This document shows, in pieces, positions 57,362 to 61,834 of a stretch of 64,000 bases of DNA (the stretch's first letter is position 1; each line of letters starts with the position of its first letter). The notes beneath the pieces were generated by a model. That model did no database searches. It was not told where the DNA came from and saw only the letters and a program-made list of their open reading frames with translations. The position numbers and the translations under genes are program-made. Origin of the DNA: Ulvibacter litoralis (lineage in GTDB: Bacteria; Bacteroidota; Bacteroidia; Flavobacteriales; Flavobacteriaceae); the NCBI RefSeq assembly GCF_900102055.1, contig NZ_FNBA01000003.1:124001-188000 (forward strand), given 5' to 3'.

Positions 57362-58444
57362 TTAATGGTTTCCATAGACTACAAACGTAAAGGCACTATC
57401 TCTAGCAACTCCTGCGACTGTTTGAATACGGATTTTAAATGAGTTTGGACCTGTAGGTTCATACCCTGCAATTTCAGGAGTTCCAAATCCAGTCGTAAAT
57501 GGAGTTACTAATACAACACAGTTGGATCCATTTGTTTCGTGATCTAACACAATATCGTATTCACCTGTCGCAGGATTCGAAAAAGAGGCAATTCCGTAGC
57601 CTGTTTGAATGTCGTCAAAGCCTAAGGCAACACTCCCAAATGCAATTGGCATCGAATTTCCGTACACCGTATTTAGCTGTGGAGCAGTTGTAGTTGTGTT
57701 AATCAAAGTACGACCATCACCCTGAACTTGAAAAGCAACAGCCCCTCCATTACGAGCTTCAATAAACTGTGCATCTTCCGAGCTACCTGCAGGCATTTCT
57801 AAATTAACGATATCATTTGCAGCACCAACGACATTAGTTGCTCTAATGTCCATGATTTCTCCAACAACTGTATTGTCACCGCTAATAGTTACGACATCGG
57901 CATTAGATGCTCCGTCACCAATAATAGCTTCCGCAGGCATTGAGTCTGCAGATTTTGCATACGGAACACTTACAAATTCAGTAGTTCCTACTGAAGTCCC
58001 ATTTAAGGAAACTTCTAAAAAGTGTGCATTGGCTCCCCAGTTTACAGAAAGTGCACTTACAGCTCCTATTTGTGTAGAAAACACACCATTAGCATCTGTG
58101 GTTAGGTTTTGCGTTTCAGTAAAAACAGAAGGGCCTCCCGCAGTACCTTCATGAATGTTAAATCCAATGGTTACAGCAGCATTAATTAGTAAGTTCCCAC
58201 CTGCATCTCTAGCAACTGCTTGGTAGTTTATTAAGTTTGCAGCTGTTAAACGATTGGCGATAGCTCCAGAGTTTGAGCTTTCATCTGCTATTAGTTTTTG
58301 ACTGTTTTCAGATTGTCTGGCATCTAATAAACGGTTTGTTTCGTAATTAGAATTACTTATAACGCCTTCAGTTCCTTGGGCAAATAAAGTTGAGATTGAG
58401 AAAAGTAAGGTGATAATTGCTATATATGTGTGTGTAGTTTTCAT
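57362..58444 (-). CDS. Secreted protein of unknown function
   Basis: The 360-residue protein has a signal peptide (to FAQ, residue 23) and a beta-rich domain (about 70-165) containing INYQAVARDAGGNLL and TETQNLTTDANGVFST, a pattern common in Bacteroidota secreted fibre-like proteins. The middle (about 170-260) is rich in Gly, Asn and Asp, and the C-terminus is beta-rich. There is no T9SS tail. It lies six bases after the T9SS-tailed gene and is surely in one operon with it. Confidence 0.75.
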   Translation of the reverse strand: MKTTHTYIAIITLLFSISTLFAQGTEGVISNSNYETNRLLDARQSENSQKLIADESSNSGAIANRLTAANLINYQAVARDAGGNLLINAAVTIGFNIHEGTAGGPSVFTETQNLTTDANGVFSTQIGAVSALSVNWGANAHFLEVSLNGTSVGTTEFVSVPYAKSADSMPAEAIIGDGASNADVVTISGDNTVVGEIMDIRATNVVGAANDIVNLEMPAGSSEDAQFIEARNGGAVAFQVQGDGRTLINTTTTAPQLNTVYGNSMPIAFGSVALGFDDIQTGYGIASFSNPATGEYDIVLDHETNGSNCVVLVTPFTTGFGTPEIAGYEPTGPNSFKIRIQTVAGVARDSAFTFVVYGNH

Positions 58445-58450
58445 AATGTT

Positions 58451-58945
58451 TTATTTTTTAATTATTTTGAATGTTTTCGATTTAACGGTAGCACTTTGTA
58501 CTATGGTAAGTAAGTAGATGCCTTGATTGTAATTGTAGAAGTTGATAGTTTCGCTGTTGACATTATTTTCAACTTTCTTCTGAAGGATAACCTTTCCATT
58601 CATATCGTGTATTACAATTTCGAAATCTCGTGCTACCATATCTTTAAAGTTTATGGTTAGATAGTCTGTTACTGGGTTGGGGTACACAGTTGTGGTTACT
58701 TCAAAAGTGAAGTCGTCATTGCTAAGAACAATTTCTTCGATAGCTCCTAACCAAAATCCTTGGCCTAATTTTTCTCCATTTGAAATGGCACCAATGATAG
58801 GTTCTCCTATTGTAAAACTAAGTGTGTTTGAAGCTCCGTTAATCGTATTTCCAGAGGTTGATACTACAGCTTGGCTCAAGCTTTGCGCCTGACTTACTGT
58901 TAGAGTAAAAAGCATAAAGAGTAGTATATAAATTGTTTTTTTCAT
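58451..58945 (-). CDS. Short T9SS-tailed surface protein
   Basis: The 164-residue protein has a signal peptide (to SQA, residue 20), a short beta-rich N-terminal segment (SFTIGEPIIGAISNGEKLGQG) and a T9SS type A sorting domain (about 88-164, TVYPNPVTDYLTINF onward). The N-terminal pattern with GEPI and LGQGFW is common in Bacteroidota operons with fibre-like genes. Most of the protein is sorting tail, so it may be an anchor for its neighbour. Confidence 0.8.
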   Translation of the reverse strand: MKKTIYILLFMLFTLTVSQAQSLSQAVVSTSGNTINGASNTLSFTIGEPIIGAISNGEKLGQGFWLGAIEEIVLSNDDFTFEVTTTVYPNPVTDYLTINFKDMVARDFEIVIHDMNGKVILQKKVENNVNSETINFYNYNQGIYLLTIVQSATVKSKTFKIIKK

Positions 58946-59130: not shown

Positions 59131-59156
59131 GAAACCCTTTAAATAAGGGGGTTTTT
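59131..59156 (+). terminator. Orphan terminator-like hairpin
   Basis: AAACCCTT and AAGGG with GTTT pair around a short A/T loop, followed by five T. No plus-strand gene lies upstream, so it may end a small RNA or the fit may be chance. Confidence 0.3.
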
Positions 59157-59230
59157 CCTGATGCTTTAAAGTGGTTTACTCCTTATATTTTTGGTTATAA
59201 GTATGTAATTTGCTAGTGCTTATGTAGGTA

Positions 59231-59259
59231 ATACTCAGTAATCATAAATCACTGAGTAT
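59231..59259. promoter_or_regulatory. Perfect 9-bp dyad upstream of the signalling operon
   Basis: ATACTCAGT (59231-59239) and ACTGAGTAT (59251-59259) are exact inverse complements with 11 bases between, so the half-site centres are 20 bases (about two helical turns) apart. The dyad ends 17 bases before the -7 element at 59277 and replaces the -33 box, the place expected for an activator. The operon encodes a LuxR-type response regulator, which may bind here. Confidence 0.55.
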
Positions 59260-59276
59260 CTTACTGATATTATTTC

Positions 59277-59284
59277 TAACTTTA
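59277..59284 (+). promoter_or_regulatory. Near-consensus -7 element of the signalling operon
   Basis: TAACTTTA differs from TAnnTTTG in the last base only. No TTG -33 box is present; the dyad occupies that position. Confidence 0.45.
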
Positions 59285-59309
59285 TGGAAACCTTAAAAAT
59301 CAAACCATT

Positions 59310-59810
59310 ATGAAAACAGTAGTTAAATCGGTATCAACATTTCTTATTGTAGCGTCGCTATGCATATGTTTTATTTCATGTGATACAAAAACGCAGTTAC
59401 ATGACGCTACACCGCCACAGCAAACAATTACCTATGAGCAAGCAAATGCATTAGAAGAAGATTATATAGAAACACGGTATAAGTTATTGAAAGACACCTT
59501 AAAAATTGAAGACACTAGAGATTTTTGGTTCTCCATAGATACATTGAAAAAATACATTGCTTATGTAGAACACGAAGCAGGGGAAAAAGGACTTTCAGGT
59601 TTAGGTGTTCGCGTCTATTATGGTTCGTACCCTAAAAAAAGTAACTATCCTAATGCAGGATACTCAACTGTTTTTATAGTACCAACTGCAAGGGATGCCG
59701 CTTCTCCGATTAAAAGTGGTTTCGCGCCTATTAAAGCAGAGGATAGTAATATTGAAGGATTGTTGCCATTAAATTATGGCGGAGGTGGAATTCCACCAAA
59801 TAATTATTAA
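59310..59810 (+). CDS. Lipoprotein of unknown function, first gene of a signalling operon
   Basis: The 166-residue protein has a signal with CFISC (Cys24) and a mature part with an N-terminal helix (TYEQANALEEDYIETRY, about 41-57), FWFSIDTLKKYIAYVE near 73-88 and a globular alpha/beta region with GLGVRVYYGSYP near 97-108. The end is rich in Gly, Asn and Pro. I do not recognise the domain. It is coupled to the 7TM gene (TAATG). It may be the outer sensing partner of that protein. Confidence 0.75.
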   Translation: MKTVVKSVSTFLIVASLCICFISCDTKTQLHDATPPQQTITYEQANALEEDYIETRYKLLKDTLKIEDTRDFWFSIDTLKKYIAYVEHEAGEKGLSGLGVRVYYGSYPKKSNYPNAGYSTVFIVPTARDAASPIKSGFAPIKAEDSNIEGLLPLNYGGGGIPPNNY

Positions 59811-60460
59811 TGGGAACAAAAAGCATGAACGCTACTTTTTTGCCTTATTCTATTCCAATTATTGAGCTTATTGCAGTAATTTTTGCGACAGTTCACTTTA
59901 AAAAATATGCTGCGTCTAACGAACGCTATTTTTTATATTTTTTATGGTTTACTTTTTTAATTGATGTAACAGGAACAATTTTAAATCATTTTTCAATTGA
60001 TAATAAGCTAGTATATGAAGTATTTACCATAGGTAGTTTTTTATTCTATTTTTATTGGTTTAATACTATTTTAAAGAATAAGACTTTTAAAAGGATTGCA
60101 AAATTTTCAGCAATCATGTTTTTAGGTGTAACTCTAATAGCGTATATTCTACCCTCTTATGGAGGGCAAGGATATGCATTTGTAACAGGTGCTATCTGTA
60201 TTTTGCTATTAACATTTTTGCATCTATTTCAGCTATTGAGAGGGGATGAAATATTGGTTGTAAAGTATAAATTGAGTTTTTGGATTACCACCGCATTGTT
60301 GTTATTTTATGTAGGGATTATACCTCTCATTTTACTTTCACAATATTTAAATGTAGAAGGTGCAAGTAGAACAGTTATCTTTATAAGCCTTAACATTATA
60401 TTATACGGCTGTTATATTATTGGCTTTATATGGACGAAAAAGAAGTACAATCGTTTTTAA
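59810..60460 (+). CDS. Seven-helix membrane protein of a signalling operon
   Basis: The 216-residue protein has seven predicted membrane helices (about 13-31, 40-58, 68-86, 98-114, 122-144, 155-176, 186-208) and very short loops, ending in KKKYNRF. An in-frame ATG at 59825 is an alternative start. It resembles the membrane half of 7TMR-type sensors, here encoded apart from the kinase. The next gene starts 31 bases before its stop. Signal sensing in the membrane is inferred from context only. Confidence 0.75.
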   Translation: MGTKSMNATFLPYSIPIIELIAVIFATVHFKKYAASNERYFLYFLWFTFLIDVTGTILNHFSIDNKLVYEVFTIGSFLFYFYWFNTILKNKTFKRIAKFSAIMFLGVTLIAYILPSYGGQGYAFVTGAICILLLTFLHLFQLLRGDEILVVKYKLSFWITTALLLFYVGIIPLILLSQYLNVEGASRTVIFISLNIILYGCYIIGFIWTKKKYNRF

Positions 60461-61191
60461 TTATTTTTTCAGTCATTGCTTTTGCTTTAGCACTAACACT
60501 TATTCTTCTTTTTATTTTTTTTCAGAAGAGGAAAAATAAATTATTAGGAGAACAGCAAGAAGCAGAGAATAGATTTAGAGAAGAAATAATAGAAACTCAA
60601 ATTGAAATTAAAGAGGATACCTTACGGAATGTAAGTTGGGAATTGCACGATAACATTGGGCAATTACTCACCCTCTCTAAAATTCAAATGCAAAACGCAA
60701 AAGACAATCCTGAAGCGATTGATGAAGCGATCGAAACCTTGGGAGAAAGCTTAAACGAATTGCGAAGTTTGTCGAAGTTGATTAACCCAGATACTCTTAC
60801 AAACTTAACTCTCGTAGAGGCCTTGCATCTCGAAATTGAACGATTTAATAGATTGAGATACCTTGAAACCTCTTTAGAGTGTTCGGCAAGTTACTTTGCA
60901 ATTGACAGTAAAATAGAAATTATTATTTTTAGAATGTTACAAGAGTTTTTTACCAATACTATTAAGCATTCTAAAGCTTCAAAATTGTCAGTTTATGTAA
61001 ATTATACAGGAAAAACATTAACGATAAAAGCAGAAGATAATGGGGTTGGTTTTGATGTTTCTAAAATGGAAAGCTTTCAAGGCATCGGACTCAGTAATAT
61101 GAAAAATAGAGCAAAATTGATTCACGCAGACATTCAAATTAATTCAATAGAAGGCAGCGGAACCCAACTTTTGTTCACGTATAAAATTTAA
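60430..61191 (+). CDS. Sensor histidine kinase, NarL/NarX-type (HisKA_3-like)
   Basis: The 253-residue kinase has one N-terminal membrane helix (about 11-31), a coiled linker, and the dimerisation-phosphoacceptor domain with His73 in WELHDNIGQLL. The ATPase domain shows NTIKHSKASK (N box), DNGVGFD and GIGLSNMKNRA. It has no periplasmic sensor domain, so the signal likely comes from the 7TM protein and lipoprotein encoded before it. The start is the ATG at 60430, which overlaps the 7TM gene by 31 bases. Confidence 0.9.
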   Translation: MDEKEVQSFLIIFSVIAFALALTLILLFIFFQKRKNKLLGEQQEAENRFREEIIETQIEIKEDTLRNVSWELHDNIGQLLTLSKIQMQNAKDNPEAIDEAIETLGESLNELRSLSKLINPDTLTNLTLVEALHLEIERFNRLRYLETSLECSASYFAIDSKIEIIIFRMLQEFFTNTIKHSKASKLSVYVNYTGKTLTIKAEDNGVGFDVSKMESFQGIGLSNMKNRAKLIHADIQINSIEGSGTQLLFTYKI

Positions 61192-61195
61192 AATC

Positions 61196-61834
61196 ATGGA
61201 ATATTCAGTAGTGGTGGTAGACGATCATATATTGCTTTCGCAAGCAATAGGAGGTCTTGTTGAGGCATTTGATCAATTTAAGGTTATGTATTTGTGCAAG
61301 AACGGGCAAGAGTTGATAGATGCTCTCCAAAACCCTAAAAACATTCCAGATATTGTTCTAATGGATGTGAATATGCCTATTTTAAACGGTATTGAAACTA
61401 CCGCACATTTAAAAGATCATTTCCCAGAAGTAAAAGTACTAGCTCTTTCTATCGAAGAAGACGATGCTACTATCTTAAAAATGCTTCGCGCAGGGGCCAA
61501 AGGCTACTTAATGAAGGACGTTAAAAAAGCAGAACTTCAAGAAGCACTTCTCGAAGTGGTTGAAAACGGATATTACCACACCAATACTGTTGCTAAAATA
61601 TTGGTAAACTCGCTGCGGCATAAGGAAAGCAGTGTATTGTCCCTAAAAGAACGTGAAATTGAATTCATTCAACATGCCTGTACCGAAAAAACCTATCGTG
61701 AAATTGCCGATATCATGTGTTTGAGTCCAAAAACAATTGAGGGTTATAGAGATGTTTTATTCGAAAAATTAAATCTTCGGAATCGCACCGGACTCGTAAT
61801 TTATGCTATCAAAAATAAAATATTCACGCCCTAA
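61196..61834 (+). CDS. LuxR/NarL-family response regulator
   Basis: The 212-residue regulator has a receiver domain with the phosphoacceptor Asp57 in IVLMDVNMP and a LuxR-type helix-turn-helix (about 145-207, with LSLKEREIEFIQ and LSPKTIEGYRDVL). It is the partner of the kinase, separated by four bases. The promoter dyad at 59231-59259 is a candidate target. It ends exactly where the opposing O-methyltransferase gene ends. Confidence 0.92.
   Translation: MEYSVVVVDDHILLSQAIGGLVEAFDQFKVMYLCKNGQELIDALQNPKNIPDIVLMDVNMPILNGIETTAHLKDHFPEVKVLALSIEEDDATILKMLRAGAKGYLMKDVKKAELQEALLEVVENGYYHTNTVAKILVNSLRHKESSVLSLKEREIEFIQHACTEKTYREIADIMCLSPKTIEGYRDVLFEKLNLRNRTGLVIYAIKNKIFTP

Follow-up and report, generated by a model that had tools for sequence, protein, structure and literature searches.

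A small lipoprotein and a seven-helix membrane protein paired with a two-component system: a candidate multi-component sensory operon of Bacteroidota

The window analysed here, a 64,000-nucleotide stretch of the Ulvibacter litoralis genome (contig NZ_FNBA01000003.1, positions 124,001 to 188,000), carries towards its right end four forward-strand genes for a small lipoprotein, a seven-helix (7TM) membrane protein, a histidine kinase and a response regulator, preceded by a promoter region and a divergent gene. The features are, in window coordinates:

58451-58945, minus strand: divergently oriented gene, a possible co-target, whose short secreted product bears a T9SS sorting domain
59147-59183, no strand: degenerate counterpart of the predicted operator, a half-site plus a weak site, spaced 22 bp centre to centre, a distance also seen in some relatives
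59231-59259, no strand: perfect 9-bp dyad singled out in an earlier note on this DNA; not conserved
59277-59284, plus strand: -7 box TAACTTTA of the Bacteroidota type, followed by the conserved leader AAACCTTAAA
59310-59810, plus strand: lipoprotein gene, 166 aa, lipobox Cys24, unnamed family
59810-60460, plus strand: seven-helix membrane protein gene, 216 aa, probable true start 59825, unnamed family
60430-61191, plus strand: histidine kinase gene, HisKA_3 and HATPase_c, one TM helix, no sensor domain, His73
61196-61834, plus strand: response regulator gene, NarL/LuxR-type, Asp57

The four genes are real and intact and form a single operon. The order and tight spacing given in the earlier note, with overlaps of 1 and 31 bases and then a 4-base gap, are all present in the open reading frames as annotated. 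The first of these overlaps holds only if the first ATG of the 7TM gene is used; because Met6 (59825) is nearly invariant among relatives, it is the probable start, which leaves a 14-base gap and makes the overlap with the lipoprotein gene perhaps merely apparent. The 31-base overlap of the 7TM and kinase genes, by contrast, is real and conserved: these genes overlap in 104 of 109 loci, most commonly by 31 bp, which suggests that their translation is coupled. No open reading frame fusing any two of the four parts occurs in the loci examined, and the operon holds no Hpt gene. A link to defence systems was also considered and rejected, as PADLOC gave noise only. The divergent T9SS-tail gene has an orthologue that likewise diverges from the cassette in Ulvibacter antarcticus, and it is a possible candidate for co-regulation with the operon. 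It pairs with a gene for a 360-aa secreted protein without a family match (57362-58444, minus strand), and similar secreted-protein starts lie upstream of the cassettes at L040, L044 and L049.

The kinase and regulator form an unremarkable two-component pair of the HisKA_3/NarL class. Pfam identifies HisKA_3 and HATPase_c domains in the kinase, which retains its phospho-His motif (H73-D-N-I-G-Q) and its N and G boxes, and a REC domain (Asp57) followed by a GerE/LuxR helix-turn-helix in the regulator, so that phospho-His, HATPase_c and REC-GerE, the features that define the class, are all in place. The kinase had been described as having no sensor of its own, and this is borne out: its single hydrophobic stretch is N-terminal (residues about 4-34), giving one TM helix and no sensor domain. 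Among NCBIfam models, it scores against those of LiaS and UhpB.

Neither the lipoprotein nor the 7TM protein could be assigned to a known family or fold by family searches or by the structure searches that the earlier note had proposed. Pfam and NCBIfam gave no match for either protein, including 34 homologues of each scanned singly, in agreement with the first impression that no family could be named, and searches of the PDB with the sequence profile of each also found none. The AlphaFold2 model of the 7TM protein consists of seven long helices (mean pLDDT 89.7). Lys and Arg are concentrated in the short loops 1, 3 and 5 and at the C-terminus, from which, by the positive-inside rule, we infer an N-out/C-in topology. 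Foldseek searches of the PDB with this model returned nothing below E=0.001 (E 0.3 or worse); the loose neighbours were rhodopsins, GPCRs and myomaker, with a probability of 0.93 for proteorhodopsin and a TM-score of 0.59 for archaerhodopsin. Three candidate identities were rejected. For a microbial rhodopsin, there is no significant fold or sequence match, and the retinal-binding Lys is missing, the last helix (SLNIILYGCYIIGFIW) containing no Lys. Membership in 7TMR-DISM_7TM (PF07695) finds no Pfam match, and hhalign against family members gives a probability of 8% over 79 columns. For HisKA_7TM (PF16927), the hhalign probability is 0.3-0.5%, and no kinase-fused open reading frame occurs in the loci examined.

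The lipoprotein opens with an N-terminal signal and the lipobox FISC (residues 21-24, Cys24), and by this pattern qualifies as a bacterial lipoprotein. Beyond the signal, its model shows two helices and a small sheet at modest mean confidence (pLDDT 75.5), and Foldseek found no fold match, enzyme folds included. Its family conserves the motifs DxR, G-x-R-x-Y, PT and a C-terminal N-x-G..G-x-PP; conserved positions across 117 sequences include D68, R70, Y82, G99, R101, Y103, Y107, P125, T126, N155 and the C-terminal PP. By the criteria of hydrophobicity and lipobox pattern, the only ones applied, 99 of the 117 have a lipobox or other hydrophobic N-terminus; a simple TM anchor often takes the place of the lipobox. 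In the 18 without an export signal (about 15%), the protein begins immediately with the conserved domain, and no more than 13 in-frame codons precede it. On a FastTree phylogeny of the 7TM partner, parsimony gives about eight changes in the export-signal trait, compared with about 19 when labels are shuffled. Because about 15% of the small partners have no export signal, the idea of a periplasmic ligand binder must be incomplete. The sequences thus make a fixed periplasmic role for the family doubtful; the lipoprotein of the window may bind a ligand at the outer face, a role that should not be assumed family-wide. Extra copies of the small-protein domain lie near the cassettes at L074 (1035-4128), L088 (5648-6619) and L095 (2721-3347), some of them being longer lipoproteins of 310-323 aa.

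Both families are widespread. Of 200 genomes sampled from the family of the window, at least 115 carry a homologue of the 7TM protein and at least 120 one of the small protein, frequencies that are lower bounds because the genome sampling rested on loose first-look searches; the 7TM protein is also found in other Bacteroidota families. Gene linkage was counted over 109 distinct operons, among which related genomes are not independent. The small-protein gene lies beside the 7TM gene in every locus read in detail, and each of 12 genomes with a seemingly lone small protein has an adjacent divergent 7TM gene that single-sequence search had missed. The two proteins are an obligate pair. Nor do they mostly stand without a kinase, the outcome that the earlier note had named as counting against its proposal: a kinase adjoins them in 98 of the 109 operons. 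It is HisKA_3-like and accompanied by a LuxR-type regulator in 78 operons, LytS-type with a LytTR regulator in 8 operons of another clade, and without a regulator in 12; Pfam scans of examples identify the second type as His_kinase (PF06580) plus LytTR and the kinase-only type as HisKA_3. Of the 11 operons without an adjacent kinase, one runs up to the edge of its contig, one has another cassette as its neighbour and nine lie at the rho/rpsT locus. These nine kinase-less pairs (L085, L087, L100, L101, L116, L117, L118, L120 and L122) belong to one flavobacterial clade and occupy a conserved site between rho and rpsT/proS (or proline biosynthesis) genes.

In several operons, the 7TM protein is present in two or three copies, or the small protein in two. 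Tandem 7TM copies precede one kinase at L068, L096, L115, L215 and L217, an arrangement that suggests hetero-oligomeric receptors. The genome of the window itself carries a second, diverged four-gene cassette (contig C24, about 137,850-140,320; L002/L221), with a small protein of 118 aa and no export signal.

As the lipoprotein and 7TM pair stays constant while two unrelated kinase/regulator types are swapped behind it, we take the pair to be an input module, and it probably serves as a detachable 'antenna' in a sensing system that is widespread in Bacteroidota. The first proposal had been a receptor kinase broken into parts. The gene linkage and the use of two kinase/regulator types strongly support the idea of separate parts, and the 7TM protein has no sequence kinship to the two fused-7TM families tested, so descent from a known receptor kinase is unsupported.

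Our preferred reading, to which we give a probability of about 0.7, is that the operon is a self-contained, autoregulated, multi-component signalling system in which the lipoprotein and 7TM protein form the input module and the NarL/LuxR-type regulator acts on palindromes. Under this model, the two front-end proteins would work jointly as a detachable unit. The 7TM protein, lying N-out and C-in in the inner membrane, would couple to the TM helix and cytoplasmic core of the kinase; the lipoprotein, on the outer face in this genome, would modulate the 7TM protein, either through ligand binding or by sensing the state of the envelope. The HisKA_3 kinase would then phosphorylate the regulator, which would bind AGGNG-W5-CNCCT palindromes upstream and regulate the operon and possibly adjacent genes. 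Direct contacts between the partners, the stimulus, the direction of regulation and the role of the palindrome as the site of the regulator are steps that we infer.

A possible, although less probable, alternative is that the cassette is an accessory system for envelope stress, comparable to LiaFSR or RcsF-IgaA-Rcs, in which the lipoprotein and 7TM protein would not be a ligand receptor but would inhibit or monitor, keeping the kinase inactive as long as the membrane and outer membrane are undisturbed. The three-component layout of LiaFSR, with a HisKA_3 kinase, a NarL-type regulator and an accessory membrane protein in one autoregulated operon (PMC7191749), is matched here in its gene content, with autoregulation predicted; the kinase has one TM helix, where that layout has one or few, and scores against the LiaS and UhpB models, and a lipoprotein and polytopic protein acting upstream of a LuxR-type regulator is the logic of Rcs (PMC5978795). 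The frequent exchange of the lipoprotein form for a simple TM anchor also suits an envelope monitor, whereas the variants without any export signal do not fit a pure one. Nor does homology help this alternative, as neither protein matches LiaF, IgaA or RcsF in Pfam or NCBIfam; on these grounds we rejected membership in LiaFSR through a LiaF homologue and, given also the lack of an Hpt gene in the operon, membership in an Rcs-type relay.

We consider it unlikely that the small protein is instead an enzyme or chaperone that makes, modifies or stabilises the 7TM protein or a membrane-permeant signal. Such an activity could operate in either compartment, which would accommodate the gain and loss of the export signal while the pairing with the 7TM protein persists, and the conserved polar residues D68, R70, R101, Y103, T126 and N155 could serve it; the model, however, is of modest confidence and resembles no enzyme fold.

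The preferred reading of a self-contained signalling operon also predicts a site for its regulator. A palindrome, AGGNG-W5-CNCCT with an A/T centre, lies mostly 120-180 bp upstream of the cassette start and is present with at most one mismatch at 31 of 78 LuxR-type cassettes compared with 0 of 31 others, namely those with LytTR, no regulator or no kinase (Fisher p=4e-6, with kinship among genomes ignored). Three permuted control patterns gave 1, 1 and 0 sites, the expectation from shuffled sequence was 0.4, and the coding stretch directly downstream contained no palindrome. The strict form is rare, each of 16 genomes having 0-3 sites; five of these genomes (G101, G157, G178, G036 and G063) have one such site just upstream of a cassette. 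Because the loci in which the palindrome was discovered overlap with those on which it was counted, the count within LuxR-type cassettes is descriptive; the more stringent tests are the comparison with the other types of cassette and the rarity across whole genomes. Upstream genes differ between lineages and occur in both orientations, so the palindrome belongs to the cassette, and it is presumably the operator of the cassette's LuxR-type regulator. Some loci have a second, weaker site 21-25 bp off. A genome-wide search with a relaxed palindrome gave 55 sites versus 51 for a control pattern, and no regulon could be read from it. At L149, the only perfect AGGGGAAAAACCCCT palindrome of the own genome (C27:79566-79580) is not at a cassette; it lies in a roughly 900-bp gap without open reading frames of at least 70 aa and is possibly another target of the regulator or an unannotated RNA. 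No description of the palindrome, or of the cassette, was found in the open-access literature.

The window has a left half-site, GGGGG-TTTTT, at 59147-59156, where the whole site has four mismatches, and a better copy, AAGTGGTTTACTCCT, at 59169-59183, with two. Sites with two or fewer mismatches arise in 5% of shuffles, and the window copy is therefore weak on its own; because only degenerate copies are present, the operator in this genome is a prediction. The autoregulation anticipated in the earlier note may thus hold, by way of this different, conserved palindrome and not through the dyad from which it had been argued.

That dyad, ATACTCAGT-N11-ACTGAGTAT at 59231-59259, is present and exact. 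As described, it covers the expected -33 position, and it lies 17 bases before the -7 box, for which the Bacteroidota consensus is TAnnTTTG. The upstream regions of relatives conserve this box and the leader beside the start codon. The dyad is absent from the same place in all related loci examined, even within the genus (L036), so autoactivation through it is unsupported, and we rejected 59231-59259 as a conserved operator. It could still be the operator of the regulator in this genome, a lineage-specific substitute for the palindrome, and its perfect 9-bp arms, with centres 20 bp apart, would suit this where the conserved palindrome is degenerate. We regard this as very unlikely, however, given that the same-genus orthologue without the dyad has an 84%-identical regulator, that the dyad occurs once in the genome, with no second site at two or fewer mismatches, and that mononucleotide shuffling of the 250-bp upstream region yields a perfect 9-bp dyad with a spacer of 4-16 in 4% of cases. 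An RNA element upstream was likewise rejected, as Rfam gave no match and the fold z-score of -1.3 is no better than that of shuffles. It is similarly improbable that the palindrome serves to end transcription of the upstream gene, as a T-run follows several copies (for example, at L050 and L054) but many perfect copies have none (L036, L038, L040, L042 and L092), a divergent upstream gene adjoins 17 of 28 copies and non-LuxR cassettes have no palindrome.

If the reading of a self-contained operon with a detachable input module is true, Bacteroidota share a common sensing front end, a receptor in pieces whose parts can be reused on different kinases. More tentatively, and with slightly less than even confidence, we suggest that such cassettes are a phylum-wide class of split 7TM receptors, in which a seven-helix transducer and an obligate, side-switching small partner would serve interchangeable LuxR- and LytTR-type pairs, some being kinase-less. 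The system offers two protein families to name and a predicted operator, and the cassette is a natural experiment on how a signal passes from a 7TM protein to a separate kinase.

Several known systems share parts of this design. Seven-helix input on a histidine kinase is found in 7TMR-DISM (PF07695) and HisKA_7TM (PF16927) proteins, and 7TMR-DISM proteins share an extracytoplasmic part as well, but these are one chain where the cassette uses three, and the hhalign probability of at most 8% is not significant. The 7TM model shares its N-out/C-in arrangement with the rhodopsin/GPCR seven-helix fold, the source of its best loose Foldseek neighbours, yet it reaches no significant E-value or sequence match and has no retinal lysine in the last helix. 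UhpC-UhpB-UhpA likewise combines a separate polytopic sensor with a HisKA_3 kinase (the UhpB model matches) and a NarL-type regulator; unlike the cassette, UhpC is a 12-helix transporter-like protein and UhpB has its own multi-TM region. In the Rcs phosphorelay (RcsF-IgaA-RcsCD-RcsB), a lipoprotein and a polytopic inner-membrane protein also feed a kinase and a LuxR-type regulator, whereas the cassette has no phosphotransfer protein, shows no RcsF or IgaA homology and keeps its genes in one operon. LiaF-LiaS-LiaR of Firmicutes again places an accessory membrane protein, a HisKA_3 kinase and a NarL/LuxR-type regulator in one operon, under autoregulation of the kind predicted for the cassette, but LiaF is unrelated to the 7TM protein, there is no obligate lipoprotein, and the input pair of the cassette is also joined to LytS/LytTR kinases. 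By analogy, the cassette would function most like three-component systems such as LiaFSR or, in its lipoprotein-to-polytopic logic, like Rcs; as far as sequence can tell, it is a front end of two unnamed families set on an ordinary HisKA_3/NarL two-component pair.
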